IMG/VR virus record: IMGVR_UViG_3300034061_000981
Location: 1 to 64,000 of that record
Source: a virus
Length of the DNA stretch: 64,000 nucleotides
Strand: one strand, 5' to 3'
The notes below the pieces were generated by a model, which did not search any database, was not told the origin of the DNA, and saw only the letters and a list, made by a program, of their open reading frames with translations. Shown here one piece after another: positions 11,503 to 30,729 of this stretch. Position numbers and translations under genes: made by a program. Every line of letters starts with the position of its first letter. Positions within the stretch are counted from its first letter, which is position 1.

Positions 11503-14500
11503 ATGGCAACAAGAATTAGAACGCTGAATTTTTTACCTGAGATATTTAAAACTACAACTAATAGCCAGTTTTTACAAGCTACATTAGACCAGTTAGTTGC
11601 TCAACCTAGTACAAAAAGGATTGAGGGATATATAGGTAGTACATTTGGCTATGGTATCAATGCAAAAAACAAATATGTTATAGAACCAACCAAAGTTAGG
11701 ACAGATTATCAATTAGATCCTGGTGTTGTTTTCTTAAAAGAAAACGACACAACTGCTAATGATTTTATTAGTTATCCTGGTATAATTGATGCATTAAAAT
11801 TAGAAGGCGCTATTACCGGTGACAATAGTAAATTATTTACTAGTCAATTTTATTCTTGGGATAGTTTTACAGATTTAGATAAAATAATTAACTTTAATCA
11901 GTACTACTGGTTACCGGAAGGGCCTGATCGTGTAATTATTTCTTCTGATATTATTTACAACTCAGTAAACTTTACAGTAGTAGATCAAGCAAATGATTAT
12001 CTAATTTCATCAGATATTAATCCAGTAGGTACTCCAAATCCAACACTTACATTATTACGCGGTGGTACATATACGTTTGGTGTAAATCAGGCTACACAAT
12101 TTTGGATTCAAGGTGAACCAGGAGTAACTGGTTATAGTTTAACTCAACCAAACGTACAAACACGTGACGTTTATGGTGTAACTAATAATGGAGCAACTAA
12201 TGGATTAGTTACATTTGTTGTACCTGAAAAGAATGCGCTAGATGAATATAATTTCCCATTAGGTCCCACATGTGGAGTAGTATCTGATTTACCTTTTAGT
12301 CAAGTTAATGGTGCGATTGTTTCTGACATTGGTGGTATTGATGGTGTTACTGCACTTGACGGTTTAACTGTAATGTTTTACAATACAGGTGTTGTTGATG
12401 AATATGGATTTGTATCAAAATTTTACGACCAAACATTATATGATGAAGATGGTGGTTCTTCTTATGCATATCCAGGAACTGAAGAAAACCAACTTAACTT
12501 TGATGGTGGTTACTTCACTGAAGTAAGCGCATATCTTTACAACATAACAATATTACCTGGAAATGTAATACAATTAACACCTGCATCTCTAATACCAACA
12601 AATCAAACAATCATTCCTTCATTTGGTGTTAATTATGGTAATAGAGAATTTTATAGAAATGTCGCCGGCTCCATTCAATTAGTACCATACAATAGTGCAA
12701 TATTGGATCAACTATATTACCAAGATGGATCATCACCTACTAAAGTTGGTGTCATTAGATTAGTTGATAACAATATTACAAATGAAATTAATGTATTAAC
12801 TCAAATATTAGGTAAGAAAAACTATACTGCACCCAATGGTGTTGTGTTTACTAATGGTTTGAAAGTACTATTTCAAGGTAACGTATACCCAGAATCATAT
12901 AACAATGTAGAGTATTATGTTGAAGGTGTAGGTACTGCTATCGAACTCATTCAGGTTGACTCACTAATAAGTCCAGGCCTGTTTACTGAAGGCGTGTTTA
13001 TCCCATGGGATACTACCCCATGGGATATTGGTAATTATGATTCAGGATTGTACATTCCAGTAGAACAAGATTATATTACTATTGCAAGAAATGCAATTAA
13101 TCGTAATGCATGGTCACGTAGTAATCGTTGGTTCCATATAGATGTCATCAATGCGACTGCAACATATAATAATGATCCTACCCTAGTAACAGCATGGGCT
13201 ACACCTGATAATAAAGCTAAACGTCCTATTATTGAATTCTATCCTAACTTACGTTTGTTTGATTCGGGTGTATTAGGTAAAGATCCTATCGATTACATTG
13301 ATACCAGAACAACTGATGCATTTACTTTAGTCGCTGGTCAAGAAAGTTATTATCCTGATGTAGCAGGTTGGTCAACTTACGATGCAACTATTGCACCTGC
13401 TAACTATCCGTCACCGATAACTGATAAAACTATACTATCAACAGAAGCATTAACAAATAAAATTGTAATGAATAATACAATAGGATTGTATGTAAACGAT
13501 ACTATTTCAGTAGCTAGCGTAGTTGGTGATGACCCATTGGCTAATCCGCCCATACCCGGTTTGGTGCCAATTGTACCCGGAACGGCTGGTACTATACAAA
13601 AGTATTATATTACAGAAATATCAGGTAACAAAATAACTGTTTCAACAGAGATACAAGGAACACCGGTTGTACTTGCAACAGATACTCCTGTTAGTCCAGT
13701 AACTACAACAATTTATTCTTACAGTTCAACTATTACAATAGCATCATCAGATGTAAGTGGGTTGTTTGAAGCTGGACAATATATTATTGATTCTGCCGGT
13801 ATATTACCTGATATAACTTATATTAGAAATGTTAACATTGTTGGTTCCGATACTATTATTACTATAGGTTGGGATAGAATTAACTATTCAATGATTGGCA
13901 CTACGGTTGACCCTGAAACCGGAACTACCGGTGTTTCAGTAGTAACAGCAGATACACCATTAAGTAACTATGCATTGTTTGATGGAGCAAGAATTGTATT
14001 TGCGGCAGATGAAAATTTAAGTGTTAGAAATAAAATTTATATTTCACGCTTTTCAACAATTACTCCTAACACAACACCTGTGATTACATTAACGGAAGCT
14101 CCACAAGGAGATGTGTTACCGGATGAACAAACTGCCGTATATCGTGGTTATAACAATCAAGGTAAAGATTTTTACTTTGATGGTATTGAATGGTTTGCTG
14201 GACAACAAAAAATAACTGTCAATCAAGCACCATATTTTGATATATTTGATAGTAATGGAATAAGTTTAGGTAATGGAACCGTATATGTTGGTACATCATT
14301 TACTGGCAGTAAATTATTCAGTTATGGATTAGGCGTTGGTGCTGACGACCCTGTATTAGGTTTTCCTCTACGCTATTCATCTATAGATAATGTAGGTGAT
14401 ATTAGTTTTGATGTCACATTAAACTCACAAACATTCAATTATGTTAGTGGTACCGAACCAATAACTGAGAATGTAAATACAGGCTACGTTTATAATTATA

Positions 14501-17500
14501 CCGACAGGGTTAACTATACTCGTCAGTTAGGATGGCAAACTGCGGTATCACCAAGCGTACAGTATCAAATTTTTGAATCTGATTGGTTTGCAACCACATC
14601 ATCAAATACATTTACATGCGATGTTGCTCCAATGAGTTCATCTGAGACTACTTGGCCTATTGTACAAGTTTATATTAATAATAATTATCTTGATCCATCT
14701 AATTATACAGTAACATCAACCGATACATCAACAACGGTTACAATTCCAACTATCAGTGCAATCGATACAGTTGTTCAAATATTAATATTAAGTAATCAAG
14801 TAAGTAGTACTGCATATTACGGTATTCCTATTAACCTAAGTAATAATCCATTCAACGAAGATGTTACAACAGTTAATATAGGTGACATACGTGGTCAGTA
14901 TCAAAGTATTTTCTATAATAATCCAAACACTACTGGTGAAATTTTTGGACCTAACAATTACCGTGACTTGGGTAATATGGTGCCATGGGGTGACAGAATT
15001 ATTCAAAACAGTGCGTCATTGGCATTGCCTGGCACATTCCTACGCAAACAAAATCTTAATTTATTCAATTCATTGTTGTATAACAGCAGACAATATATTA
15101 CATTTAAAACGTTGCTAGTAGATACAATTAACAATGCAAATTATTCAACCAGATTAACACCGGCACAAATGCTTGATGGTGCAATGGATCAAATTACATC
15201 AAATAAGACTGACAGTCAGCCCTTCTTCTGGAGTGATATGTTGCCATCTAAGTCAGCATATATCAGCAATACATACAGTTTTGCTAACTCGCTTGATGTT
15301 AGTATCTATCCATTAACTAAAGTTTATAATTTTACTACTGCAAATTACAATGGTGTATTAGTATATCTAATACGCAACGGAGTAACAACTCAATTGATTA
15401 CGGGTATTGATTATACAGTAAGCACTACGTCCCCTTCATTAACAGTAACAAAAGATTTATTACCAAATGATCAAATTGTAATTAACGAATATAATCAAAC
15501 ATATGGTTCATATGTTCCAAATACTCCTACAAAATTAGGATTGTACCCTGCGACTATTCCTTCTGTAACATTAGATACAGCATACAACGAACCTACTTAT
15601 TTTATTGTTGGGCATGATGGTTCATTTACTAAGTTATATGGCAACTATGATCCAGAAACAAGTACGCTAGATGACTATAGAGACCAAGTATTATTAGAAT
15701 ATGAAACACGTGTATATAACAATTTGAAGTTAAGCAACGTTATTCCTATAGAATTAACAGACATTTTACCTGGCTTCTTTAGAACAACTGATTATACATA
15801 TGATGAATTTTTGCAAATCTATTCTGAATCTTTCTTAAATTGGGTAGGTGAAAATAGAATCAATTACAAGAGACAGTTATATAATACAGCTAACCCCTTC
15901 ACTTACAACTATGACAATAACAGTAGTAAGATAGCTAATACTTTAATTCAACAGGGTTATTTTAGAGGATTGTATTTGTATTATTATGATACTTCTACAC
16001 CAGATACTACCCCATGGCAAATGATAGGTTATGCTAATGAACCTACGTGGTGGACAAGTCGTTATGGCGCGGCACCTTATACAAGTGACAACTTGGTATT
16101 GTGGGGAGACATGGCTGCAGGTATCGATTGGAATAACGGTAATCCTGTAGTAATACCTAAATATGTTCGTGATGGATTGCTTAGTGTAATCCCAGTAGAT
16201 AGCAATGGTGATTTATTGCCACCAACAATTTCTATTTTAGGAAATTATAACGCCAGAACATTTAATCGTGATTGGAAAGTCGGCGACGTTGGTCCTGCAG
16301 AATTCTCATATCGTAGAAGTAGCACATGGGTATTTGACTTGATGCGAATACTTGCATTGACTCGTCCTGCCGCATTCTACAACTTAGCAGTTGACATTGA
16401 CAATTACAAATATAACGCTGAATTTAATCAGTTCCTAGTAAATGATAGAAGTCATTTGAATGTTAAAAACATTCCAATATATGGTACCGGGACGCCTGCG
16501 ACTAGCTATATTAACTGGATTGTTGATTATGAAAAACAAGCAGGTGTAGATGCAACATCTAACATCACTACATTATTAGATAACTTAGATGTGCGTTTAA
16601 TATATCGTATAGCTGGCTATAGCGATAAAGATTTGTTACAATTCTATGTTGAAAAGAGTTCAGCAAATAGTAATAACAGTTCATTGTTGATTCCGGACGC
16701 AAGCTATCAAGTATTGTTATATGATAATCAACCGTTTGATAAGATTGTATATTCAGGTGTTGTTATACAGATAACAGAGAATGGTTATAAAGTATTTGGC
16801 AACTCACAAACCAACGCATACTTTACAACATTAGTACCTAAAAATAATGGAATTACAGAATCAATCACCGTAGAAAATTTAACAGTTAAGTTAGCAACTG
16901 AATTTTATAATAGAACCGTATTGGTTCCGTACGGAACTGAATTCTATTCAGCACAAGAAGTAGCACAGTTCTTAAATTGCTATGGCAAATATTTAGAATC
17001 TCAAGGTGTAGTATTCGAGCAAATTGAAAATGCTATACCAGTTAACTGGCCACAAATGGTTGCAGAATATATGTACTGGTCGCAAATGGGTTGGGAAGTA
17101 GGAAGTATTACTACAATCAACCCTGCGGCTACATTATTATCTATTGATCGTGACAGCTATATTGTACAACCATTAACATTACGCCAACAAAATTTTGTAT
17201 TGAATCAAAACTTATATCCAATACAATCAACTGATTTGTCTATTGTACGTGAAGGTACTGCTTTCACTGTTCAACCATTGAATCAAGGTGATGCAATTAG
17301 TTATGGTCAATTTAATATCAGTAACTTTGAACATGGCATTGTGTTCAGCAATGTAACATTGTTTAACGATATAATTTATAATTTGATTACTGGTTTAAGG
17401 CAGAACCGTATATTTGTACGTGGTGCAAAGACAGCAGAGTGGAATGGTACAGTAGATGCATATGGATTTATTCTTAACCAAGATAATATTCAACAATGGA

Positions 17501-20500
17501 ATAGCGAATTCAAATACACTAAAGGGGCAATTGTTCTTTATAAGAACAGATATTGGAGTGCATTAGGTATTGTCCAAGCTAAACAATTATTTGATGAACG
17601 TGATTGGAAAGAAATTCCTTACGGTGAGATTCAAAAGGGATTATTACCTAATAGTCAAACACGTTCATATGAAAGTTCATTATACTACAGTTCAGATAAT
17701 GCAAACTTAGAAAAAGATGCTGACTTATTAAGTTTTAGTTTGATTGGATATCGCCCAAGAGATTATCTAGCAATTGCTAATTTAACAGATATTACTCAAG
17801 TAAATGTTTATAAAAACCTGATTAAAGAAAAAGGCACATTAAATGCCGCTAGTGCATTTAAGGGTGCTACATTACCACAAGGTGGCATTGATTATGACAT
17901 TTATGAAAACTGGGCTATCAAGTCAAGTGAGTACGGTGGCGTTTTAAATAACAACTTTATTGAAGTTAGGCTACAAGAGCCGGTACTCACTGGCAATCCT
18001 AGTATTGTTGGTTTAACCAATGGTGTTTATACTGAAGGTGTTCAACAGGAAATACCATTGTATTCTATCTTTAATTACGGTAGACCAATCGATTCTCCTG
18101 ATATATTGCCTACAATCAGTTCAACTGAACCATCTAACTTATTACCTACAGCAGGATATGTAAACTATAATGACGTTAAAATGTCAAGTTATTTTTATTC
18201 TGGGTTATCAAACGCACGTGATGCGTCTGGTGTAAGAGTACCTATCAATAAGTTTTATATACGTGATTATGTTTGGTTAGCAAACTATCTAGCTGATTGG
18301 CAAGTTTATACTCCTGTAAGTTTAGGTTCAATTATTAACGCTAAAAATAATTTAAATGGTACAGTTACTATTACTTTTAGTCAAGCACATAATTTAATTA
18401 AGTATCAACTTTTTGCAATATTAAACTTTAATACACAAATTAACAATTATTATGTTGTGGCTGGGGTAGTAGATCCATTTAGAGTTATTATTAATCTATC
18501 ATTGTCACCTAATATAACTAATTTAACTGGTCAAGGTGTTGGCTTCAGAATGCAAAACCAACGTGTTGCTACCGCACCGGAAATTGCAGACTTACCATCA
18601 TTAATTGATAATGAGTTTAACAAATTAAAAGTTTGGGTTGATACTAATAATGATGGTAGTTGGGCTGTATTCCGTAAGTCATTAAACTATCAATATGATA
18701 AAGAAATTTTAAAAGATAATAGTCAATCATTTGGTAGTGCAGTAGCATATACGCCATCGATGGGTTATTTAATTGGTGATGCAGAAGCAGGTGAAGTATA
18801 TCGTTATTCATATGATATTAAAACTGATTCATATATTATTGACCAAACTATATCAGAAGGTCCGTCTTTTGGATCTACTATTACATATGTAGATGATATA
18901 TTTGTAGTATCAGAACCTACAGGCACACCAAAAGTATACATTTATGAACTAGTAACCACAACATTGGTTAATGACATACTTCCATATCAAACTATTAGCT
19001 CACCGGAAAGTTATATAACTAACTGGGGTAGCGCAACTGCGCTATCAGGGGACAAGAATTGGTTATATATTTCTGATACAGTAAACAATAGTGTTCACGT
19101 TTACCAAAAGTCAACGTTAACTGATTTGTACGAGGCTTCACATATTATAGTAACTCCAAATACAGTAAATGTTGGTAATTTGATGGCAGGGTCTGAATAT
19201 GTTATACAGACAGTGGGTACAACGGATTTCACTGCATTAGGCGCGTTATCTAACAGCGTAGGTGTTATATTTACTTGTAATTCTAGTTCACAAACAGGTA
19301 CAGGTGTAGTAACAGTTGCTGGGGATAAATTTGGATATTCAATTGCAACAGATTATTATGGTGACACAGTAGTAATTGGTACACCTTATCAAAACTATGA
19401 TGTTAATACTGAAAATTATGGTTATGTATATGCGTTTGCAAGAACAGTTCAGAACTTTGAAGTTCAAAGCACAAGTCAATCATATGTACCGCAGTCATTC
19501 CCGTTGTCATGGACTCCAACCTCAGCCACCATAAATGCTACAGCTATTAGTAGCAATGTAATTACAGTAAGTGACTTAACTGGATTAGGAATATCAGCCG
19601 GCGCAACGGGTACCGCAATTATCTTTACTGGCACCGTATTTGGTGGTATATCATTAAATCAAGTATACTATGTTAAATCTATTGTAGATTCAACACACAT
19701 TACAATTTCATTAACACGTGATGGTACAACAATATCATTAACCAACAGTTCTGGTTCAATGACAGCGGTACCACAAACATCACCTCTATACGTAAGTGTT
19801 AACGGTACTTTAATTGAAGATAACACTTATGCTGTAATCAGTTCAACGTTGTATGTCTATAGTGGTCAGACACCAACATTAAATGCAGGTGATATTGTCA
19901 ATGTAAGTGGTTCTAACTTTGTATTAAATCAGATATTAACAAATGAAGAAACACCTAGAGTTGGTGTAGAGTTTGGTACAAGTGTTGATACTAATAATTT
20001 TGCAAATGAAATACTAGTAGGTGCCCCGTTTGAATTAAACGATAAAAATCAAGAGGGAGCAGTACATAGATATACCAATGGTGGTGAGAAATATGGTATT
20101 ATTATTGGTACACAAAACTGCAATATCACTACTCCTAGAACAATATTATTAAATGGCTATTCAGTAACATTACCGGTTGGTAATGCAACACTCGCATCTA
20201 ATGCTATTAATCAAGCTATCATCACTAATATTACATCAACTGCAATTGATGGAAAACTTATCATTCAATTAGTAGATATAGCAATTGGAGTACCAAGTAA
20301 CAAATTATCATTGACTGTATTAGATAGTGCAACACTAGCTGAGATGGGAATAACTGTTTATACTCAAACTCAGAAAATTCTTTGTCCTCGTACCACTGGA
20401 CCAACACAATTTGGTACTGTAATTAAATTCAATGAACAAGGATCATTTGTGGCAAGTGCGCCAATTGGTGCACGTTATACAGCAACTACTTTTGATTTTA

Positions 20501-23500
20501 CTGATGATGAATTAGATAACGATACAGTGTTTGATAATAATGCCACTCAGTGGATAGATACATTTACAAATGCAGGTGCAGTATACATGTTTGATTATTT
20601 GTCTGCATATAACGAAAGTTTAAACAATCCTGGTAAGTTTGTATATGCACAAAGTACAAATGCACAAAACTTAGATTATGGTGCTCAACCAATGTATGGT
20701 CAAGCAATTGATTTTAATAACAATCGTGTGATTGTTGGTACTCCTAACTTTAATCCAGTTCTAAATGCAGAAAATACAAATGGTCAAGTAATTAGTTACA
20801 TAAGTGCAAGTAGTGAACCTGATTGGTCAGTATATAGAAGTTCAGCACCTATAGTAGATATTAACAGTATAGGTCCTATACAGTTGTTTAGTGCTTCAAC
20901 AAATAACACATTAGAAAATTTAGATTACTTTGATCCATTGCAAGGTAAATTATTGGGTGCAGTACAAGAAAACATTGATGTTATTTCAAATAGTGACCCG
21001 GCTGCCTATAATAGTCCGGGTAATACTCAACGTGGTTTAGTATGGGGTGCAAGTCAAGTTGGACAACTTTGGTTCAATACATCTAACACACGATTTGTTA
21101 ACTATCATCAAAACGATGTGATATATAATAGTCAATATTGGGGAAGAGTATTTACCGGCAGTGATGTTGCTGTTTACTCTTGGATAGTTAGTGATGTGCC
21201 TCCTACACAATATGCAGGCCCGGGAACACCATTCAATATTAACACATTTGCTGTTCATGCTGTGCTCAATACTGAAGGCACAGTAGTACCAGTTTATTAT
21301 TATTGGGTAAGAAATACTAACATTGTATTTGATCAACGTGGTAAAACTCTAGCAGATTCAACTATACAATCGTATATTGCACAACCACAGAATGCAGGCA
21401 TTAGTTATTTTGCACCATTACAATCTGATATTTTTGGATTATACAATAGTGGTGCGTATATAAATGCAAATGATACTATATTACATATTGGTTATGCAAC
21501 AGGATCAAATGATGATGTTTCCTACAATCAATTTAGTTTGATTCGTGCAGGATATCCTGATGACTTTTTAGATGGCTTACCTGGATCTGGCGCGGCATAT
21601 CAAAGTAATAATGGTTCGGGGATAACTCAACCGATTGGTTTATATAATAGAATGTTAGATAGTTTGTCAGGCGTGGATACGACAGGAGCAGTAGTACCTA
21701 ACCCATTCTTACCAAAAGCAGTGCAGTCAGGTGTGCTTGCTAGACCACGACAAAGTTTCTTCTATAATAGATATGGTGCATTGAAAAATTATTTACAATA
21801 TGCTAATGCAGTATTAGCACAGTTCCCAATAATGGAAACTAGAAATTCACAATTCTTATATACAGTGGGAGATATTAACCCGTCTACAATTAATAATCCT
21901 GATTGGTCTGGTCCTCCTTTACTATTCTTTGATACACCAAAGTATTGGAACTTAATTAACTGGTGGGCTCCTGGGTACAACGATAACACACGTGCAACAT
22001 TACAAGTTGCTATATATGCTGATTTAGCAACACTAAATGCTGATGTGGGTACTATTGTTACTGTAGCCACAAACGGTGCAGGTAATTCAGAAACATACAT
22101 ATATGAAGCTAATGGCACATGGACTAGAATTGGATTAACAAATGGTACTATTGAGTTTAGTAATTACCTTTGGGATTATTCTGCGGCAAGATTAGGTTGG
22201 GGAGATAATTTCTTTGACACTACACCATATGATACATATCCAAGCGAAGAAACACGTTACATCATTCGTGCATTGAATGAAGAAATTTACACAAACGAAT
22301 TATTAGTATATAGAAATAAGAGTTTGATATTGTTATTTGAATACATTCAAAGTGAGACAATTGAAAGTCAAAATTACTTACCATGGTTGAACAAAACGTC
22401 ATTCATTGACGTATCACATACCATTCGTGAGTTACGTCCAATTGAAGTATTCCAATCTGACTATCAAGATTTCTTAAGTGGCTACTTAAATGAAGTAAAA
22501 CCATACCACGTAGTTATTAAAGAATTCTTGTTTAAGTACACCGGTACTGATGTATTTGAGGGAGACATTACTGATTTTGATTTGCCCTCACAATGGAGTT
22601 CATCAACACAAACATTCATAACACCTCAATTAGTATATGAAAATTCAAATAATGTTAATGAATTCTTACCAACTAACCCTATATGGCAAAACCCTTCATA
22701 TAGCCAATGGTATCAAAATTATGGTTTAAGCATTGTTGGTCAAAATGCATATCCAATATCAATTTTAGAATCATATGTATCATTAAATTCTTCATCACTG
22801 TATGTTACTAATGCCAATGGCTTCCCTGTAGCTGGAACAATTTTAATTGGCACTGAATTAATTACATACAATTCAATTGATTTAGCAACAAATAGATTGT
22901 CAGGTTTATTTCGCGGAGCAATGGGAACAGAGATTCAAGTTCATATACCAGGAGAACAAATCATAATAGATTTGCCTGCTGTATTAGTGTTGAATAGTGG
23001 CCGAGCATATATAAATCCTCCATTGATTACAGCAAATATTGATACTACAATATACCCTGCACCAAGAGTACCTGCTCAACTTGAGGCTATAATGAGTCTT
23101 GACAAGGTTATCGGTGTAAATGTAATTAATCCGGGATCAGGATATGCTGTATTACCCACAATTGATATTCAACCTGCTATTGTAGTTAATGTACCTAGTA
23201 CTAGTATAAACTTAATTAATAGTACAATTGAATTAACATCAGCAGTACTACAAACAGGTGACTTGATTGTTTATAATATTGGTTCATCTTCAACTCAAAT
23301 TGGTGGTTTGTCTATTGGTCAACGTTATTATGTAAAATTATTAGAAGCTACACCATCACCAATTATTGCTCTTTACAGTACATACATTGATGCGGTAAAC
23401 GACCATAATCGAATTGTACTAGTTAGTACGGGCACTGGTACGCAGACATTTAGTGTAGGTGCGTATGCATCCTGTGTGACTAGCGCAACGCCAGTAAGAG

Positions 23501-26500
23501 AAAACAACATCACGTTGCGTTTTGATAGAACATCATACACTTCTAAAGTTGTAGATTGGGAACCGGCTGGTTTTTACGGTTCATTCTATGCAGGTGATTA
23601 TTCTAATGATCAAATTTTTTCTTCATCTTCAATTAAATTGTACAGCACTGACCCGCCTATTGGTGGTATTCTTGCTGGTGAAACATACGGAATTACTGCA
23701 TCAGCACAAGGCGGAGTATTCCAAATATTAGATGTTGAAAATGATCAGGTATTAACATGGTCCTCACGTACAAGAAATACAATACAAACGTACGGCCCCT
23801 CATCATTGTATCCAAATACTATTCGTATTAATCCTAGTACAGGTGGTGCTGAAGTAGCCGGAGAGATTGGTTCTACCATTGGTTTCTATGTTGGTATGCC
23901 AGTTAAGTTTGTTGGCGCTGTACCAGTAGGTAGTTCAATCGTATCTTCTAGCCCTACAACAGATGTTATATATTATGTTAAATCATTGGTAAAATTACCA
24001 AATCCTGATAACCCAAGTGAATTACAAGATACTGGCTTTACAATATCAGATTCAGTAAACGAAGATGGTGTGCCAGCTGGTGTTAAAAACTTATTAGTTT
24101 CCGCTAATGTACCAACTGCCGGTTTAACATTATATGTTGGTCAGTTAACTAACACTGCGGTAATGACTATCAACTACAATAGTTTAAGAAACGCTTCAGC
24201 TACATCAGCAACTAATAATACTGTGACTGTTGATTTAACTGTTACCGGTCAAGATGGTACTACTGAATTCTTCACAGGACTTCCTATCTTCTTTGTTGGT
24301 ACTGAGTTTGGTGGGATTATTGAAAATAGAAAATATTACGTAAATGCAGTCATTGATAGTACTTCATTTACTATGACTGAAACTACTGATCCTACAATTA
24401 TTTACTGTACAGCAACGACTGGTACTGCGGGTAATTTAATTCTATGCCCGACAACTATTGATTTAAGTGTAAATGATCCTGTCATATTCAATGGTATGGG
24501 TATTAATGGTAATGCAGTATCAAATTTTGGTGGCATTGAAAGCGGAACTACTTATTATATCAAAGATATTAACAATGGTTCTTTTACATTAAGTGAGTCA
24601 ATTAATGGTTCGATTTTTGTATTAACTGACCCCCCAATTACAGCAAGCAACTTTACAATTGCACCTATGTTATTACAAACTGAAGTTGTTCAGTTAACAA
24701 ATGCTACTGGCTCAATGCAATTAAATATTGATAATGGACTAAGTCCAGGACAAATTACAGGTCAACAATTTACATTGTACGGCCAAGCTGGTCCCTTTAT
24801 AGATGTTTCAGGCACTGCATCTAACTTGATAGACAGAATTCTTACGTCTACTAGAGCATCTACCCTTAACAGAGTAACATTGGCTACAGTAGGTGGCGGC
24901 ACAACTAGTATCTATGCAAACATGCTATTCAACGTTTCTGCAAATATTGGTGGACTAACTACAACAGGTGGACCATATACAGTAACTGGTTTAGGTACTA
25001 CTGCTGTTAATATTTCTGCTACAAATCCTACTGGTAACTGGTTAACAGTAACGCCGGTGACAGAGTATTTAGATACAACAGCCGCATTATATGAAGGCAT
25101 GCCAATATACTTTACTAATCAATCTTTAGGTGGTGTATCGTTGAATACTGTATATTATGTACATACTATAGGTACAGGCGGTGATGCAGGTAAAATTAAA
25201 ATATCTGAAGATGTAAGTTTAACTACAGTGTTTACAATTATTAGCAGTCAAACAGGCGCAATGATAGGTACCGGAGAACAGTATATTACAACTAGTACTG
25301 CATTGACAAACGGAGTATCGGTTGGTGATAGCACAAGTCTAACACAGTCAGTTGGAACACCAGCAGAATTTGACGTTGGTGCCATCTTAGGTGGGTATAC
25401 TGCTTCTATCGTACAAGTTTTGGCTACTAGTATTGAAATTGGCAAAACTTATACCATCGTGACCTTGGGAACAACTAATTGGAATACTATAGCGGGAACA
25501 TCATTGGTTACTTATGAAGTTGGAGATGTGATTACTGCTGTTGCGTTAGGAACAGGTACTGGATCTGCTTCATTGAATGGGAAGGGCTACGCACTCAACA
25601 ATGTTATTACAATCTTAGGTACAAATTTGGGTGGAACGAGCCCAACAAACGATTTATCATTGACAGTAGCTGCCATTAATTCATACGGTGGGGTTACATC
25701 CACGATTACTAGCGGAACACCTGCAGGATTAGAAAACAAATATTACTTGAAAGTAATAAATCAAGATCAGGTAGAAGTATATAGTGATCCTAATTTAACA
25801 GTTCCAGTAAGTGGTCAAAACTTCCCGTATGTTGGGGCAACAACTACAACCGCAACTGAAAGTGATGGTACTACAGAAATAATTACAGTAGACAGTTCAA
25901 CATATTTTGCAGTTAATGATCCGGTTGTATTTACTGGTAATGTATTTGGTGGCGCAAATCTAGTAGCGGGTCAAACTTATTATATTATATCTAAACCTAC
26001 ATCAACGACTGTAACTATTTCAAATTCAATTGGTGGTAGTGCTGTTAATTTAACAACATCTACTGGTATAATGACAATGGCTAAATCAGGTGATTATGCT
26101 GTATTACCTCAACCGTTCTACTTTGATCCAAGTATTGTAAGATACAGAAACAATGTATATCAGTGTATAATTAGCAACAACGACTCAGAATTTATCATAG
26201 GTAAATGGGAATTGCTATCATCTGGTAGCAGGAAGTTAAATGCATTAGACAGAATTGTTGGTTACTATAAACCAAACAAGACCGATACAGAAGCATGGAA
26301 TCAATATATTAATATGCCCGGAGATGATTTAACTCAATTGGTTAGTGGTATAACTTACCCCAATAGTACATATTTGGGTAATGCTTTCCCCCCGGCGGAA
26401 GAATATACACTTGATACTATATTAGTTGATCAACCATTCTATCCAACTGGCATCGATTTAAAAGCAATTACATATGGAGACAAATATATAGCTGGCTCTG

Positions 26501-29500
26501 ACACTCCTAATACTTCTGTGATTAACACTAGTATTGATAGTGTTGACTGGACAGTGAAGCAATTAACAAATACACCAATTGACGTTACTGATATTATCTA
26601 CACTGGTAGCAAATATATAATCACAACAACTAATAATGCAACACCTGTATTAATAAGTGACAACGGAGTTGAATGGGATTCTACAATAACGTATGTCCCT
26701 ATAAGCAATGTAGCACCTCTTCTAATGAATGGAGTTGGGTATACCAATGGTACGTATATTGCAGTTGGAAATAATATAATTTCATCTACTGATTTAAGTA
26801 CATGGAGAGAAGTGTTTAAGTTCCCTAATGATGGATTAACCAACACATTCAATGATGTTGCATATGTTAATACAGGTGGATTTAATGGCTTTGTTGCAGT
26901 TGGTTTAGGTCAACGTTATGTAACAGGGCAAGCTACAAATACAGCAATTATATACTTTAGTGTACCTAATTATACCAATTGGATTGATTCTCAATTCGAT
27001 GGCACATTATATGGTTTAAACGCAATAGCCTCAAATGGACAAACAATAGTTGCTGTTGGTAATAATGGTATAATTTACACTAGTTTTAATGCACGTGTAT
27101 GGAACCAACAAACATCATCTGTTGTTAATAACTTGAATTCTATCATCTGGGATAATTATAATAATTTATTTGTTGTTGTGGGTGACAACGGTACAATAAT
27201 TACAGCCCCTATTGATGGTTCAATATGGACAGCCAGTACTAGCGGGACTACAGAAGACCTTACAAGTGTAGTATATAATAATGTTGATGGTGAATATGTT
27301 GCAGTGGGATTTAATAATACGGTAGTAAGAACCAATGACGCAGAATCTGCATGGACTAACTCTGCTAATTTTGAAACATTACCTACCGTATATACAGTAC
27401 AAGGTGATGCATTTACAGCTGGTTATGGTCCAGAAGAAATGGTCCCGGGCGTAGTAACAGATACATTAACCATGATTACTGCCACACGTCCAGGTACAAA
27501 TTGGGATGAAACTATATATCAACATGTTGGTTACAGTGTAGTCACCCGTGAGATTACCCCTACGTCAGATACGCAAACAGAATATAGTTTTGCTAACACA
27601 GTAGATACGCCGGCTCAGTTATCTGTATTTGTAATTAATCGCAATACAGGATTAAGTACCAGTATCTATGATGGAATTGACTACACTGTTGATTGGGTAA
27701 ATAAACTTGTTACACTGGATACTCCGATAACTTATGTACCAGCTGGAGTTTCAGATAAATTAAGAATTGATGTATATGAAACTGGTAACGGAGATCAATT
27801 AGTTAAAGCTAATACTGAAACAGATCCAATACGTGATAACGTTGTAACTGGATTCCAAGAGATATATGTTAATGCTAACTACACTGCTGGTATATATCAA
27901 GGTTCAGGTGTAATTAGACCTACAACAGAACCACAGGAAGTTACTGCAATTGCAACAAGCGAAATTACAGACGCTATCACATGTGTAAGCGTAGAAGATT
28001 TTGTATTGAATGGTGTTATCACCTTTAGCGGAGCGGTGTTTGGTAATATTATAGAAGACCAAGTTTACTATGTGAAAACCATTAGTTACGTATCCAATAG
28101 AATTACTATATCAGAAGTTTATAATACTAGTACAGGTACTGCGGGAGCCACATTCTCATTAAGTACAGCAACTGGTAGTATGAAAGCTATTATTCAAGTT
28201 GGTACAGGTACTGTTTGGACTCCACCAATCGTATATCATAATGGTGTTAAATTAGTGTTGGGTCATACTGCTACTGTAACAAGAACTAGAAGTAGTACAA
28301 ATACTGTTACTACTAATACTACCGGTGATTTAGTACCAAATCAAAAAATTAAATTTAGTAATACAATATTTGGTGGCATTGTTCCTTTACAAACATATTA
28401 TATAAAACAGATTATTGATGGTAATGAATTTACTATTTCTGAAACAGAAGGCGGACCTGTATTTGCATTGACAACTGCAACCGGTGGAGCCATGTTTGTG
28501 TCTGCTGATTATGCTATTGGAATAGCTGAGAATGGTATAAGTGCATCACTGTTGCTAGCAAACGAGTATGACATTTCAGTTGATTATCTGACATATACAT
28601 TGTTCGGTGAAACAGTACCATTACAGTATGGTTATACTATACCCGAAACACAATTAATTACAGCAGACGGTACAGTAGGACCATTTAGCTTAGCCAATTA
28701 TGTAAGTGGAAACAATCCATTAAATGCTATTGTTGAAGTTAATGGATTGCGTGTAGACCCGTCAACATATACAATTGATCCTATTGCAAATGAGATTGAG
28801 TTTAATTTAGGTGATGAACCTGCAAACAGTGATACTATTGCTGTAACTAGTTACAATCTAACTGACCGTCAATATTTCAACACGCAAGTTGTAGATACTA
28901 CCGGTGTAACAGTATCAGCAATTAGTAATATTAATAATGCTATTACAGAAACAAGTACCGTTATAATTTGTTCTGGAACTAATAGTGCTAATAATTCTAT
29001 TGTTTGTAACACTACTGCTAATTTAGTAGATGGTCAAGAAATTATATTCAAATCAAATGTACCGAACTCTGACTATGAAGGAAGTGGAATAGATACTACC
29101 GGAAAAGTTTATTATATTCTTGATGCTGATGTAAGCGGAACTGAATTTACTATTTCTGAAACTCCTAACGGTACTGTAGTTGCTGTAGCTACAGTTACAG
29201 CTAATATGGTTGGATATGTAGGTGGCAATTTAGCAATACGAGTTACAACTGCTAATTCAAATAACTTGGTTGATAACGATTTTATTCGTATTGATGGAGT
29301 GTTAGGGTCAATTCAATTAAACAACAATACCTATTATGCTAAGGTAATATCTGCTACTGAGTTTTATTTGTACTCGGAACCATATAATCCTGCATTGGGA
29401 ACGGTTAACTATCCTGTAACATTTGCATCAACATATGTGTCTGGTGGTTATGTTTGGTTAGATCAAACCTTTATTATTACCGATACTATAACGATTGCTA

Positions 29501-30729
29501 CTACTGCAAGTAATAACAGAATTGTAGTAGAAGATAATACAGGAATAGTACCCGGAACTCCAATCTATTTTACTGAGCAGGGTGCTGTAACTGGTACAAC
29601 TATATTAAGTAATATTGAAGCTAATACTGAATATTATGTATTAGACGCCAATCCAGAAACAAGCGTTACTGATTTAGTTGTTGGTTATACTTATAGTATT
29701 TTAGGATTAGGGACGACTACTAATACTGATTGGAATACTATTGCAGGTACAACGGGAGTAACATACATTGTGGGCGATACTTTTGTTGCAGCCGCAACCG
29801 GCACAGGCACCGGTACTACATTGTCATTGCAAGAATTTACTATTTCAGAACAAAGATATCCAGATGAATCAGAATTTGTTTTAACCAACGATACCGGTTC
29901 AGTATTAGTTACTCAATTCCAACAAGTTAACGTTGATAGATTGTGGGTAACAGTTAATGGTTACAGAGTTCCGTCAAGCTCATTGAGAATAAATGAGTTC
30001 AATAACTTAAGTATTTTAACAACAATCGCAACCGGTGATGAAGTCATTATTACTAGTATGATGCCAACTGCTACACCAAATGAAGAAGTTTATTTGTTGA
30101 ATGTATCAACTACAAATCAAGCGGCAGTATACAGAGCTAATACTCAAACTAGAACTTGGTTAGTACAACCTCTACGTAAAACAGATACTACGATTTATTT
30201 GAATGATGCATCACATGTCACATCTACTATTATTCAAAATGTAACTGCGCCGGCAGCAGTTGCTGGAAAAACTAGTATTGGATTAACTGCTAATAAGAAT
30301 GTAATATGTCATGTAACAATTTATAACAATACTACATCATCTATAGTAAATCCTTCAAATTATAGTTTATCTACATTTGAAACAGCCCCTGTTGTAGTAA
30401 TTACCGGTGGTGTATCAGATGAAGATTCACTGACAATTACAATTACTGAGGGTAACTTATTGTATATTAACGGCGAACAAATTGGTTTTGATGAATGCAA
30501 CCTAGAAACTAACACTGTAAGCGGATTAACTCGCGGTGCTAATGGAACAGGAGCCCAAGCAGACATTCCATTATATTCTGAAGTATTTGGTATTATTCCT
30601 GAAAATAGAATGACAGACGTTGTATATTCTAGTGTTTGGAATTCAAACATATATAATACAGTTGAGGGTGATCCACTACAAATTAGCCAAACTGTAGGTG
30701 CAAATTTCTTAAGAGTGGATACAAATTGA
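11503..30729 (+). CDS. Giant baseplate/fibre structural protein, 6408 residues, modular
   Basis: One uninterrupted frame covers 30% of the window. The N-terminus (FLPEIFKT, FLQATLDQLVAQPSTKRIEGYIG, then FNQYYWLPEGPD by residue 145) resembles the start of very large structural proteins of aquatic T4-like phages, in the genome position of T4 gp7. Residues about 150-2250 are non-repetitive. Residues about 2405-3105 hold seven FG-GAP-like blades. Residues about 3900-6110 are a mosaic of short repeat modules and include a second seven-bladed propeller at about 4986-5290. A short element (L/I..GE.I.. followed by SGLxRGAxGT) occurs at about 3780 and 6318. No signal peptide or catalytic motif was seen. 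Likely role: wedge arm or fibre reaching outward from the baseplate; exact equivalence to gp7 is unproven. The start follows a 28-base gap. Confidence 0.75.
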   Translation: MATRIRTLNFLPEIFKTTTNSQFLQATLDQLVAQPSTKRIEGYIGSTFGYGINAKNKYVIEPTKVRTDYQLDPGVVFLKENDTTANDFISYPGIIDALKLEGAITGDNSKLFTSQFYSWDSFTDLDKIINFNQYYWLPEGPDRVIISSDIIYNSVNFTVVDQANDYLISSDINPVGTPNPTLTLLRGGTYTFGVNQATQFWIQGEPGVTGYSLTQPNVQTRDVYGVTNNGATNGLVTFVVPEKNALDEYNFPLGPTCGVVSDLPFSQVNGAIVSDIGGIDGVTALDGLTVMFYNTGVVDEYGFVSKFYDQTLYDEDGGSSYAYPGTEENQLNFDGGYFTEVSAYLYNITILPGNVIQLTPASLIPTNQTIIPSFGVNYGNREFYRNVAGSIQLVPYNSAILDQLYYQDGSSPTKVGVIRLVDNNITNEINVLTQILGKKNYTAPNGVVFTNGLKVLFQGNVYPESYNNVEYYVEGVGTAIELIQVDSLISPGLFTEGVFIPWDTTPWDIGNYDSGLYIPVEQDYITIARNAINRNAWSRSNRWFHIDVINATATYNNDPTLVTAWATPDNKAKRPIIEFYPNLRLFDSGVLGKDPIDYIDTRTTDAFTLVAGQESYYPDVAGWSTYDATIAPANYPSPITDKTILSTEALTNKIVMNNTIGLYVNDTISVASVVGDDPLANPPIPGLVPIVPGTAGTIQKYYITEISGNKITVSTEIQGTPVVLATDTPVSPVTTTIYSYSSTITIASSDVSGLFEAGQYIIDSAGILPDITYIRNVNIVGSDTIITIGWDRINYSMIGTTVDPETGTTGVSVVTADTPLSNYALFDGARIVFAADENLSVRNKIYISRFSTITPNTTPVITLTEAPQGDVLPDEQTAVYRGYNNQGKDFYFDGIEWFAGQQKITVNQAPYFDIFDSNGISLGNGTVYVGTSFTGSKLFSYGLGVGADDPVLGFPLRYSSIDNVGDISFDVTLNSQTFNYVSGTEPITENVNTGYVYNYTDRVNYTRQLGWQTAVSPSVQYQIFESDWFATTSSNTFTCDVAPMSSSETTWPIVQVYINNNYLDPSNYTVTSTDTSTTVTIPTISAIDTVVQILILSNQVSSTAYYGIPINLSNNPFNEDVTTVNIGDIRGQYQSIFYNNPNTTGEIFGPNNYRDLGNMVPWGDRIIQNSASLALPGTFLRKQNLNLFNSLLYNSRQYITFKTLLVDTINNANYSTRLTPAQMLDGAMDQITSNKTDSQPFFWSDMLPSKSAYISNTYSFANSLDVSIYPLTKVYNFTTANYNGVLVYLIRNGVTTQLITGIDYTVSTTSPSLTVTKDLLPNDQIVINEYNQTYGSYVPNTPTKLGLYPATIPSVTLDTAYNEPTYFIVGHDGSFTKLYGNYDPETSTLDDYRDQVLLEYETRVYNNLKLSNVIPIELTDILPGFFRTTDYTYDEFLQIYSESFLNWVGENRINYKRQLYNTANPFTYNYDNNSSKIANTLIQQGYFRGLYLYYYDTSTPDTTPWQMIGYANEPTWWTSRYGAAPYTSDNLVLWGDMAAGIDWNNGNPVVIPKYVRDGLLSVIPVDSNGDLLPPTISILGNYNARTFNRDWKVGDVGPAEFSYRRSSTWVFDLMRILALTRPAAFYNLAVDIDNYKYNAEFNQFLVNDRSHLNVKNIPIYGTGTPATSYINWIVDYEKQAGVDATSNITTLLDNLDVRLIYRIAGYSDKDLLQFYVEKSSANSNNSSLLIPDASYQVLLYDNQPFDKIVYSGVVIQITENGYKVFGNSQTNAYFTTLVPKNNGITESITVENLTVKLATEFYNRTVLVPYGTEFYSAQEVAQFLNCYGKYLESQGVVFEQIENAIPVNWPQMVAEYMYWSQMGWEVGSITTINPAATLLSIDRDSYIVQPLTLRQQNFVLNQNLYPIQSTDLSIVREGTAFTVQPLNQGDAISYGQFNISNFEHGIVFSNVTLFNDIIYNLITGLRQNRIFVRGAKTAEWNGTVDAYGFILNQDNIQQWNSEFKYTKGAIVLYKNRYWSALGIVQAKQLFDERDWKEIPYGEIQKGLLPNSQTRSYESSLYYSSDNANLEKDADLLSFSLIGYRPRDYLAIANLTDITQVNVYKNLIKEKGTLNAASAFKGATLPQGGIDYDIYENWAIKSSEYGGVLNNNFIEVRLQEPVLTGNPSIVGLTNGVYTEGVQQEIPLYSIFNYGRPIDSPDILPTISSTEPSNLLPTAGYVNYNDVKMSSYFYSGLSNARDASGVRVPINKFYIRDYVWLANYLADWQVYTPVSLGSIINAKNNLNGTVTITFSQAHNLIKYQLFAILNFNTQINNYYVVAGVVDPFRVIINLSLSPNITNLTGQGVGFRMQNQRVATAPEIADLPSLIDNEFNKLKVWVDTNNDGSWAVFRKSLNYQYDKEILKDNSQSFGSAVAYTPSMGYLIGDAEAGEVYRYSYDIKTDSYIIDQTISEGPSFGSTITYVDDIFVVSEPTGTPKVYIYELVTTTLVNDILPYQTISSPESYITNWGSATALSGDKNWLYISDTVNNSVHVYQKSTLTDLYEASHIIVTPNTVNVGNLMAGSEYVIQTVGTTDFTALGALSNSVGVIFTCNSSSQTGTGVVTVAGDKFGYSIATDYYGDTVVIGTPYQNYDVNTENYGYVYAFARTVQNFEVQSTSQSYVPQSFPLSWTPTSATINATAISSNVITVSDLTGLGISAGATGTAIIFTGTVFGGISLNQVYYVKSIVDSTHITISLTRDGTTISLTNSSGSMTAVPQTSPLYVSVNGTLIEDNTYAVISSTLYVYSGQTPTLNAGDIVNVSGSNFVLNQILTNEETPRVGVEFGTSVDTNNFANEILVGAPFELNDKNQEGAVHRYTNGGEKYGIIIGTQNCNITTPRTILLNGYSVTLPVGNATLASNAINQAIITNITSTAIDGKLIIQLVDIAIGVPSNKLSLTVLDSATLAEMGITVYTQTQKILCPRTTGPTQFGTVIKFNEQGSFVASAPIGARYTATTFDFTDDELDNDTVFDNNATQWIDTFTNAGAVYMFDYLSAYNESLNNPGKFVYAQSTNAQNLDYGAQPMYGQAIDFNNNRVIVGTPNFNPVLNAENTNGQVISYISASSEPDWSVYRSSAPIVDINSIGPIQLFSASTNNTLENLDYFDPLQGKLLGAVQENIDVISNSDPAAYNSPGNTQRGLVWGASQVGQLWFNTSNTRFVNYHQNDVIYNSQYWGRVFTGSDVAVYSWIVSDVPPTQYAGPGTPFNINTFAVHAVLNTEGTVVPVYYYWVRNTNIVFDQRGKTLADSTIQSYIAQPQNAGISYFAPLQSDIFGLYNSGAYINANDTILHIGYATGSNDDVSYNQFSLIRAGYPDDFLDGLPGSGAAYQSNNGSGITQPIGLYNRMLDSLSGVDTTGAVVPNPFLPKAVQSGVLARPRQSFFYNRYGALKNYLQYANAVLAQFPIMETRNSQFLYTVGDINPSTINNPDWSGPPLLFFDTPKYWNLINWWAPGYNDNTRATLQVAIYADLATLNADVGTIVTVATNGAGNSETYIYEANGTWTRIGLTNGTIEFSNYLWDYSAARLGWGDNFFDTTPYDTYPSEETRYIIRALNEEIYTNELLVYRNKSLILLFEYIQSETIESQNYLPWLNKTSFIDVSHTIRELRPIEVFQSDYQDFLSGYLNEVKPYHVVIKEFLFKYTGTDVFEGDITDFDLPSQWSSSTQTFITPQLVYENSNNVNEFLPTNPIWQNPSYSQWYQNYGLSIVGQNAYPISILESYVSLNSSSLYVTNANGFPVAGTILIGTELITYNSIDLATNRLSGLFRGAMGTEIQVHIPGEQIIIDLPAVLVLNSGRAYINPPLITANIDTTIYPAPRVPAQLEAIMSLDKVIGVNVINPGSGYAVLPTIDIQPAIVVNVPSTSINLINSTIELTSAVLQTGDLIVYNIGSSSTQIGGLSIGQRYYVKLLEATPSPIIALYSTYIDAVNDHNRIVLVSTGTGTQTFSVGAYASCVTSATPVRENNITLRFDRTSYTSKVVDWEPAGFYGSFYAGDYSNDQIFSSSSIKLYSTDPPIGGILAGETYGITASAQGGVFQILDVENDQVLTWSSRTRNTIQTYGPSSLYPNTIRINPSTGGAEVAGEIGSTIGFYVGMPVKFVGAVPVGSSIVSSSPTTDVIYYVKSLVKLPNPDNPSELQDTGFTISDSVNEDGVPAGVKNLLVSANVPTAGLTLYVGQLTNTAVMTINYNSLRNASATSATNNTVTVDLTVTGQDGTTEFFTGLPIFFVGTEFGGIIENRKYYVNAVIDSTSFTMTETTDPTIIYCTATTGTAGNLILCPTTIDLSVNDPVIFNGMGINGNAVSNFGGIESGTTYYIKDINNGSFTLSESINGSIFVLTDPPITASNFTIAPMLLQTEVVQLTNATGSMQLNIDNGLSPGQITGQQFTLYGQAGPFIDVSGTASNLIDRILTSTRASTLNRVTLATVGGGTTSIYANMLFNVSANIGGLTTTGGPYTVTGLGTTAVNISATNPTGNWLTVTPVTEYLDTTAALYEGMPIYFTNQSLGGVSLNTVYYVHTIGTGGDAGKIKISEDVSLTTVFTIISSQTGAMIGTGEQYITTSTALTNGVSVGDSTSLTQSVGTPAEFDVGAILGGYTASIVQVLATSIEIGKTYTIVTLGTTNWNTIAGTSLVTYEVGDVITAVALGTGTGSASLNGKGYALNNVITILGTNLGGTSPTNDLSLTVAAINSYGGVTSTITSGTPAGLENKYYLKVINQDQVEVYSDPNLTVPVSGQNFPYVGATTTTATESDGTTEIITVDSSTYFAVNDPVVFTGNVFGGANLVAGQTYYIISKPTSTTVTISNSIGGSAVNLTTSTGIMTMAKSGDYAVLPQPFYFDPSIVRYRNNVYQCIISNNDSEFIIGKWELLSSGSRKLNALDRIVGYYKPNKTDTEAWNQYINMPGDDLTQLVSGITYPNSTYLGNAFPPAEEYTLDTILVDQPFYPTGIDLKAITYGDKYIAGSDTPNTSVINTSIDSVDWTVKQLTNTPIDVTDIIYTGSKYIITTTNNATPVLISDNGVEWDSTITYVPISNVAPLLMNGVGYTNGTYIAVGNNIISSTDLSTWREVFKFPNDGLTNTFNDVAYVNTGGFNGFVAVGLGQRYVTGQATNTAIIYFSVPNYTNWIDSQFDGTLYGLNAIASNGQTIVAVGNNGIIYTSFNARVWNQQTSSVVNNLNSIIWDNYNNLFVVVGDNGTIITAPIDGSIWTASTSGTTEDLTSVVYNNVDGEYVAVGFNNTVVRTNDAESAWTNSANFETLPTVYTVQGDAFTAGYGPEEMVPGVVTDTLTMITATRPGTNWDETIYQHVGYSVVTREITPTSDTQTEYSFANTVDTPAQLSVFVINRNTGLSTSIYDGIDYTVDWVNKLVTLDTPITYVPAGVSDKLRIDVYETGNGDQLVKANTETDPIRDNVVTGFQEIYVNANYTAGIYQGSGVIRPTTEPQEVTAIATSEITDAITCVSVEDFVLNGVITFSGAVFGNIIEDQVYYVKTISYVSNRITISEVYNTSTGTAGATFSLSTATGSMKAIIQVGTGTVWTPPIVYHNGVKLVLGHTATVTRTRSSTNTVTTNTTGDLVPNQKIKFSNTIFGGIVPLQTYYIKQIIDGNEFTISETEGGPVFALTTATGGAMFVSADYAIGIAENGISASLLLANEYDISVDYLTYTLFGETVPLQYGYTIPETQLITADGTVGPFSLANYVSGNNPLNAIVEVNGLRVDPSTYTIDPIANEIEFNLGDEPANSDTIAVTSYNLTDRQYFNTQVVDTTGVTVSAISNINNAITETSTVIICSGTNSANNSIVCNTTANLVDGQEIIFKSNVPNSDYEGSGIDTTGKVYYILDADVSGTEFTISETPNGTVVAVATVTANMVGYVGGNLAIRVTTANSNNLVDNDFIRIDGVLGSIQLNNNTYYAKVISATEFYLYSEPYNPALGTVNYPVTFASTYVSGGYVWLDQTFIITDTITIATTASNNRIVVEDNTGIVPGTPIYFTEQGAVTGTTILSNIEANTEYYVLDANPETSVTDLVVGYTYSILGLGTTTNTDWNTIAGTTGVTYIVGDTFVAAATGTGTGTTLSLQEFTISEQRYPDESEFVLTNDTGSVLVTQFQQVNVDRLWVTVNGYRVPSSSLRINEFNNLSILTTIATGDEVIITSMMPTATPNEEVYLLNVSTTNQAAVYRANTQTRTWLVQPLRKTDTTIYLNDASHVTSTIIQNVTAPAAVAGKTSIGLTANKNVICHVTIYNNTTSSIVNPSNYSLSTFETAPVVVITGGVSDEDSLTITITEGNLLYINGEQIGFDECNLETNTVSGLTRGANGTGAQADIPLYSEVFGIIPENRMTDVVYSSVWNSNIYNTVEGDPLQISQTVGANFLRVDTN
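18718..20805 (+). other. Interrupted seven-bladed FG-GAP-like propeller in the giant protein
   Basis: Seven segments start with an (F/Y/W)G motif and end in V.VG.P-like and YxY strands. They begin near bases 18730 (SFGSAVAYT), 18865 (SFGSTITYV), 19021 (NWGSATAL), 19324 (KFGYSIATDYYGDTVVIG), 19971 (EFGTSVDTN), 20407 (QFGTVIKF) and 20692 (MYGQAIDFNNNRVIVGTP). This matches integrin-alpha-type FG-GAP repeats, which form seven-bladed propellers. Blades 3/4, 4/5 and 5/6 are separated by inserted modules of other types. Confidence 0.6.
19171..19318 (+). repeat. Module B copy 1 (GTT-rich) within the FG-GAP propeller
   Basis: Encodes GSEYVIQTVGTTDFTALGA and a Gly/Thr-rich end (TGTGVV). It is the most divergent of three copies of one module in the giant protein and lies between the third and fourth FG-GAP blades. 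Confidence 0.65.
25432..25572 (+). repeat. Module B copy 2
   Basis: Encodes IEIGKTYTIVTLGTTNWNTI, then AGTSLVTYEVGDVITAVALG and TGTGSA. It closely resembles copy 3 and is set within a different surrounding repeat (ASIVQVLATS before, LNGKGYALNN after). Confidence 0.75.
26458..27378 (+). other. Second probable seven-bladed propeller in the giant protein
   Basis: Residues about 4986-5290 contain seven segments of about 40 residues. Each has a hydrophobic strand, a YIAVG-like strand, an ISSTD-like turn and a W near the end. Examples are LKAITYGDKYIAG, MNGVGYTNGTYIAVGNNI, LNAIASNGQTIVAVGNNGII, LNSIIWDNYNNLFVVVGDNG and LTSVVYNNVDGEYVAVGFNN. The pattern resembles YCF48/BNR-type propellers. No Asp-box catalytic function is implied. 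Confidence 0.6.
29671..29829 (+). repeat. Module B copy 3, nested inside a module A copy
   Basis: Encodes LVVGYTYSILGLGTT, then DWNTIAGTTGVTYIVGDTFV and GTGTGTT. It sits between the YYVLDAN half and the EFTIS half of the last module A copy. In the preceding module A copy these halves are joined directly (YYILDADVSGTEFTIS). Confidence 0.75.

Follow-up and report, generated by a model that had tools for sequence, protein, structure and literature searches.

A 48-residue module of phage virion proteins that probably acts as a protein-level insertion cassette

In the window, the whole 64,000-nucleotide stretch of viral DNA analysed here, a giant gene of the baseplate region encodes a 6408-aa protein whose N-terminal part matches phrog_10938, a virion structural protein (1.8e-41), and phrog_677. 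The gene hosts the small modules A, B and C, laid out as follows.

11503..30729, + strand: gene for the giant 6408-aa virion protein of the baseplate region, carrying modules A, B and C
19165..19311, + strand: B copy 1, in a loop that separates FG-GAP/beta-propeller repeats (weak Pfam match to FG-GAP_2)
25340..25660, + strand: module C, split by B copy 2 (GGYTASIVQ, then B, then SLNGKGYALNNVITILGTNLGG)
25417..25569, + strand: B copy 2, which splits module C and is specific to this lineage
28963..29220, + strand: preceding copy of module A, uninterrupted (borders approximate)
29422..30084, + strand: outer domain carrying module A (from alignments of relatives)
29482..29658, + strand: last copy of module A, first part, ending EYYVLDANPE (from aligned A-only homologues; borders approximate)
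29659..29820, + strand: B copy 3, sitting in a beta-hairpin of module A (HMM borders; missing from A-only relatives)
29821-29832, + strand: linker LSLQ between B copy 3 and the resumed module A
29833..29910, + strand: last copy of module A, second part, EFTISEQRYPDESEFVLTNDTGSVLV

An earlier note on this DNA held that the last copy of module A is split by a whole module B, and that the two halves are contiguous in the copy before it. Translation of frame 29401 within the ORF 11503-30729 bears out both statements: it reads ...NIEANTEYYVLDANPE, then TSVTDLVVGYTYSILGLGTTTNTDWNTIAGTTGVTYIVGDTFVAAATGTGTGTT, LSLQ and EFTISEQRYPDESEF..., and the preceding copy at 28963..29220 runs uninterrupted as KVYYILDADVSGTEFTISETPNG. 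The nested copy 3 is a 54-aa variant with a TTTNTDWNTIAGTTGVTY loop. B was also correctly placed in two other contexts, the positions noted, 19171 and 25432, falling a few bases inside copies 1 (19165-19311) and 2 (25417-25569). The three copies in the window score E-values of 1e-16, 5e-16 and 7e-11 against the B profile and are therefore not chance matches. As a refinement, copy 2 itself sits within another small module, C, which continues 3′ of the copy as SLNGKGYALNN....

Module B is a mini-domain of 48 residues with sharp borders, present in at least 583 stretches of IMG/VR and in 85 non-redundant contexts with unrelated flanks, across which the information content is high within B and falls to about 0 bits beyond its ends. 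Position 1 is V, I or T and position 48 is A or V. All 449 of 449 matches lie in frame within ORFs of at least 168 aa, and 0/449 lie outside; the host proteins include tail sheath, T4-like gp13 neck protein, tail fibres, baseplate proteins and a major head protein. The predicted model of B alone has a pLDDT of 96.9 and extended or bridge residues at positions 2 and 47, and from these DSSP states we read that its termini probably meet; in the predicted model of the nested A and B, both blocks score 90–96. Pfam and NCBIfam hold no family for B, a Foldseek search of the PDB returned no matching solved structure (best E 8.3), and PDB sequence matches, to WD40 designs over 20 residues, were rejected as chance. 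Against cultured phages the consensus query gave zero matches even at E=10, probably because low-complexity filtering masked it, and querying with a less repetitive copy gave three records. A cultured carrier of B is cyanophage S-TIM54, in its virion structural protein UYE97271.1 (host Synechococcus WH 8102). A literature search with B peptide strings yielded no paper.

B occurs inside modules A, C and D and also inside B, and copies set in B itself and in another module reach nests up to four deep. These nests are balanced Russian dolls, recording which insertion came first. Computational excision of the inner copy restored an intact outer module in 19/398 cuts, compared with 0/1990 random control cuts. 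Control cuts adjoining B gave 10/771 'restorations', most of them one case repeated across near-identical contigs, and those printed resembled stretched alignments of retained B; for these reasons we relied on the random-window control.

To follow the insertion at 29.65 kb, relatives were compared at the same point, using a tree of 72 rows for the outer domain. Five states occur there: module A is missing, or it is present and uninterrupted, or it carries B at the hairpin, or B in another of its loops, or a B that itself contains B. Most relatives lack B. One clade has it at the hairpin, and another has it elsewhere in that A copy, in a second loop; B at the same places in all distant relatives, the outcome that the earlier note took as evidence against insertion, was not what we found. 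The tree is best read as a single gain of B at the hairpin in the ancestor of a clade of 24 rows (support 100/100), so that the insertion is old and clade-inherited, not fresh. Within this history, L177 shows a clean loss of a B that its sister L009 retains, and L010 carries an extra B nested in B. Four rows (L013, L014, L017 and L019) are best read as an independent insertion at a second site in A, their neighbour L025 being A-only. The outer domain lacks any module A in 7/72 rows (L027, L029, L042, L206, L211, L216 and L231). Some of the absences at this site, those of L177, L027 and L029, are losses, and part of the patchiness of B could reflect loss instead of gain.

The presence of B also varies at other sites and in other proteins. 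Copy 2, at 25417, is missing in the closest relative, L003, and in all other relatives in which module C was found, and copy 1 is present in L017 and L019 and missing in L008, L009, L013, L014 and L015; at other loops, relatives differ by in-frame stretches of about 150 bp. In the T4-like gp13 of marine relatives of T4, a loop of 74 residues stands against one of 24 residues between flanks matching at 232/240 and 420/450 nt, and B-bearing loops appear in two flank lineages. Even in the best gp13 pair about 45 bp adjoining the insertion differ, so no event with undiverged borders was caught. B can also become fixed in a whole family, as among the phrog_3287 relatives, where it occupies the site in every relative in which the site is readable; this family is therefore no test of gain or loss. 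Its dN/dS is 0.26 in B versus 0.12–0.17 in the flanks, that is, B is less constrained. The L118 family offered only identical contigs.

Several histories were considered. Fixed length, sharp ends, many target proteins and self-nesting at a preferred internal site are what would be expected of a transposing mobile DNA element, akin to Rickettsia palindromic elements or a MITE, whose readability in frame is fortuitous. We consider this highly improbable: target duplications, proposed in the earlier note as something to seek at the DNA borders, were not found in the 85 contexts, where exact end matches equalled those in shuffled controls, and terminal inverted repeats were likewise not detected, the mean longest match being 4.3 versus 4.1 nt with shared composition still included in that difference. 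(A small excess of words common to flanks and module ends was set aside, as genome composition was uncontrolled.) Confinement to ORFs of at least 168 aa and the free variation of codons for conserved residues also speak against a DNA element, as does the absence of near-identical copies within genomes: a search for recent within-genome duplicates found none except a neighbouring pair at 87% in L050. The copies are old, their within-genome codon agreement (0.456) only slightly exceeding the codon-usage expectation (0.395).

That B is instead an ancestral part of its host proteins, lost many times, receives some support from the losses at 29.65 kb and from the propeller-loop copy that the window shares with L017 and L019 and that relatives between them lack. 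Such an origin could hold at individual sites. As a general account it is refuted by self-nesting, in which B interrupts B, and by the finding that two clades carry B in separate loops of one A copy; the 85 contexts with unrelated flanks and the restriction of the 25417 copy to one lineage add to this, and we give the account very little credence. It is somewhat less improbable, though still unlikely, that B is only an allele of hypervariable loops, exchanged by homologous recombination and almost never reaching new sites. Exchange of this kind is indicated by gp13 alleles with and without B that cross flank lineages, together with about 45 bp of loop beside B, and by L206 and L231, whose flank identity is about 76% on one side of B versus 91.5% on the other; exchange alone leaves the 85 unrelated contexts, the nesting and the lineage-specific 25417 copy unexplained. 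Similarly doubtful is the idea that A, B, C and D are selfish protein cassettes that spread through virion genes by a dedicated DNA mechanism targeting particular turns, including a fixed site in themselves.

We therefore favour, with fair though incomplete confidence, the reading that B is a self-contained 48-residue protein-level insertion cassette that entered module A at 29.65 kb in the ancestor of the 24-row clade. The earlier suggestion that B moves between loops as such a cassette thus stands, on an evolutionary scale only; active transposition is unsupported. What is observed is an in-frame unit with sharp borders in many unrelated virion proteins, varying in presence between relatives and lying also within the small modules A, C, D and itself. 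The predicted autonomous fold and adjacent termini suggest that loops would tolerate B: as its ends probably meet, an in-frame landing in a turn or loop would let host protein and B both fold. Since neither target duplications nor terminal repeats nor fresh copies were found, B probably reaches a new site by rare events of illegitimate recombination, presumably between genes of co-infecting phages, combined with exchange of loop alleles. Selection would retain in-frame loop insertions only; the occupied or empty loop would then spread as an allele among related phages via homologous recombination, as the gp13 comparison supports, and be inherited or cleanly lost. By analogy with proposals for Ig-like domains, B may be retained for a function on the outside of the particle, the likeliest candidates being weak adhesion and decoration.

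These observations indicate that a very small folded cassette can spread among proteins in much the way that mobile elements spread in genomes. Domain insertion is normally inferred from few ancient cases, and B offers one short unit with many insertions of readable order. Because close relatives preserve empty versions, direct tests become possible of where proteins tolerate inserts, how inserts arise and whether a module persists by spreading. B also accounts for part of the size and variability of some jumbo-phage structural genes, and represents a family missing from Pfam, NCBIfam and the PDB.

Among known systems, Rickettsia palindromic elements add short in-frame stretches to many unrelated genes; they consist of palindromic DNA and occur in intergenic regions as well. 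B shares the in-frame presence in many genes but is neither palindromic nor, in its 449 copies, intergenic. Inteins are in-frame inserts in host proteins that begin with Cys or Ser and end with His-Asn, whereas B lacks a Cys/Ser first residue and a C-terminal Asn and is far too short. Other parallels come from phages. Ig-like domains (Fraser et al. 2006, cited in PMC9022992 and PMC10684548) are small and promiscuous, are displayed on tail, baseplate, capsid and fibre proteins and occur patchily; most are read in frame or added through a frameshift, and in one case, the YSD1 tail tube, the domain is inserted between strands. B likewise occupies virion structural proteins patchily among relatives, but shows no Ig/FN3 membership by Pfam or Foldseek, is 48 aa long, lies mostly within domains or loops and nests in itself. 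Phage protein-fragment shuffling places common fragments in dissimilar proteins, mainly structural and host-interaction ones (Smug et al. 2023, PMC10684548), and B is similarly common to otherwise dissimilar, mainly structural proteins; it differs in being a single short unit that has exact borders and inserts into itself, and the word 'nested' is absent from that text. Finally, according to PMC13114784, A1-B-A2 domain-insertion families carry compact, independently folding inserts with close ends, typically 50–200 aa, and insertions in RNA polymerase nest up to six levels; phages are absent from this text, and the passages considered name no family inserting into itself. B is slightly shorter than the typical range given there and, like these inserts, splits a host domain which relatives carry unbroken.

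The earlier note, made from the sequence alone, held that the last copy of module A is split by module B and that B also occurs in two other contexts, and suggested that B moves between loops as an insertion cassette. Re-reading the sequence bore out the split, and profile comparison established the three copies of B, a 48-residue mini-domain, as true homologues. All lie in one giant gene of the 107,619-base virus record that is the source of the window:

8103–11474, baseplate wedge protein (phrog_10646 match)
11503–30729 (+), giant gene of 6408 aa, next after the wedge gene; the start of its product matches families of virion structural and baseplate-wedge/fibre-connector proteins
19165–19311, B in a loop between FG-GAP/propeller repeats
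25417–25569, B inside module C
29659–29820, B at a β-hairpin of module A

The wedge protein is ~33% identical to counterparts in jumbo myoviruses (for example, Erwinia, Cronobacter GAP32 and Agrobacterium Atu_ph07 phages). Radical SAM domain matches, unusual beside a baseplate cluster, occur in three adjoining phage genes at 37927–41845, with SPASM too in two; the gene at 39324–40598 lies within a stretch absent from contigs L188 and L224 between otherwise similar flanks.

Relatives from viral contigs (L-numbers) were aligned at one position within a conserved outer domain (GGYVWxDxxF ... NVDRLWVTVNGYRVPSS), and a tree was built from 72 such domains. B interrupts A at the hairpin YYVL/FTIS in 20 rows, including the window, L003, L007–L009, L016, L158, L161, L165, L167, L168 and L170–L172; A without B occupies the site in 39 rows of the tree set, and L027, L029, L042, L206, L211, L216 and L231 have no A whatever there. 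L010 carries a second B in the middle of the first, L013, L014, L017 and L019 carry B in another loop of A, ahead of the YYV strand, and in L205 the first loop of A holds a different module, D. Hairpin B was confined to one 24-row clade (support 100/100), and the second-loop rows formed a separate group adjoining the A-only row L025. Hairpin B is best read as a single gain, followed by loss of B in L177 and of A and B in L027 and L029; compared with L009, L177 DNA lacks B between ...ATTATC and ATTTACTATTTC, with both A halves intact.

At 25417 the window reads GGYTASIVQ/B/SLNGKGYALNN, and the counterpart in the closest relative, L003, and in every other relative found is GGYSISPTINGTGYAVNN or similar and without B, indicating that this copy was gained in the lineage of the window itself. 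The copy at 19165 is common to the window, L017 and L019 and missing in L008, L009, L013, L014 and L015. Elsewhere in the giant protein, several loops differ between relatives by in-frame blocks of ~150 bp. Between L206 and L231 (about 10575–10775), the two flanks of B differ in identity, at about 76% for one and 91.5% for the other, a pattern resembling a recombination breakpoint.

B borders were analysed in 85 contexts with flanks no more than 40% identical. Information was high from position 1 (V/I, 2.5 bits) through position 48 (A, 3.3 bits) and ~0 outside; because the contexts were picked for end-to-end profile match, the exact length is partly a selection effect, but the outside drop to zero is not. 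A slight excess of Thr beside the ends was the only preference outside B. Alone, B was predicted with a pLDDT of 96.9, and isolated extended residues close to each terminus (positions 2 and 47) are consistent with ends that meet. In the predicted A+B segment both blocks scored 90–96 and the strands of A resumed past B. Comparison with solved structures gave no match for B, and the unit was also found in predicted proteins of uncultured phages (TM 0.95).

B also inserts into itself. Several phage and bacterial contigs have a B head followed directly by another B; breaks cluster near residues 26–30, with others near 20–22 and 43–45. Reading these sequences gave balanced nests: in L193/L014, head 1 (ITAGQF...LIGSTQ) and head 2 (INAGSF...LIGATQ) precede a whole B, then tail 2 (LNNIFVATGIGSGTGTS) and tail 1 (LESLFTASGAGTGTGTA), and in L169 the order is B(D(B(D))). 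Module D (GTTLTVTAVTSGTLAIGT...GTGTYTVSxSQTVASTTIT), which had no Pfam family match, alternates with B in the L169 nests at aa 2043–2285 and 2495–2667. Computational peeling recovered 27 different outer modules and reached level 4; single excisions restored a full module across the junction in 19 of 398 cases versus 0 of 1990 random windows. The order of events is readable from the nesting order.

B was detected by scanning in at least 583 viral stretches and in 27 bacterial contigs, and all 449 hits at the loci examined were in frame within ORFs of ≥168 aa. Of the host proteins that match a named PHROG, almost all belong to the particle (phrog_3287 virion protein, tail fibre J, tail sheath, head-tail adaptor, major head protein, baseplate wedge and tail spike); the sole exception by name, 'amidase' phrog_5107, has overlapping head-closure matches. 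L051, L054 and L056, binned as Planctomycetes or uncultured bacteria, carry B within FG-GAP-like proteins, so B is not restricted to recognised phage contigs. In the phrog_3287 family (L318–L397), B sits at one site in every relative with a readable site and evolves with its host under purifying selection. Another host is a neck protein homologous to T4 gp13, relatives of which have solved structures; its loop spans 74 residues with B versus 22–30 without, and the flanks of the closest pair match at 232/240 and 420/450 nt. B-containing neck loops fall in two flank lineages, and in each the nearest members are without B (L235 with L241, 0.93; L238 with L242, 0.90), indicating that the loop acts as an exchangeable allele.

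The data speak against a transposing DNA element: neither target duplication nor inverted ends were found, synonymous variation is free in B, and no recent copies were found within genomes apart from a neighbouring pair at L050:2848–3150, 87% identical in DNA and the sole recent-looking duplication. The data fit a combination in which rare illegitimate recombination would place B in frame in loops, selection on folding would act on the insertions, and the occupied loop could then be swapped by homologous recombination. The dN/dS of B (0.26, one family) indicates that B is kept as protein, and it may serve in surface adhesion, by analogy with Ig-like domains (PMC9022992).

Searches of Pfam, NCBIfam and PHROG returned no family for B itself, and no paper carrying its motif was found in the literature searched. 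Promiscuous and inserted domains are already known in phages (PMC10684548, PMC9022992) and in general (PMC13114784); what is distinctive of B is self-insertion at a favoured internal site, several levels deep.
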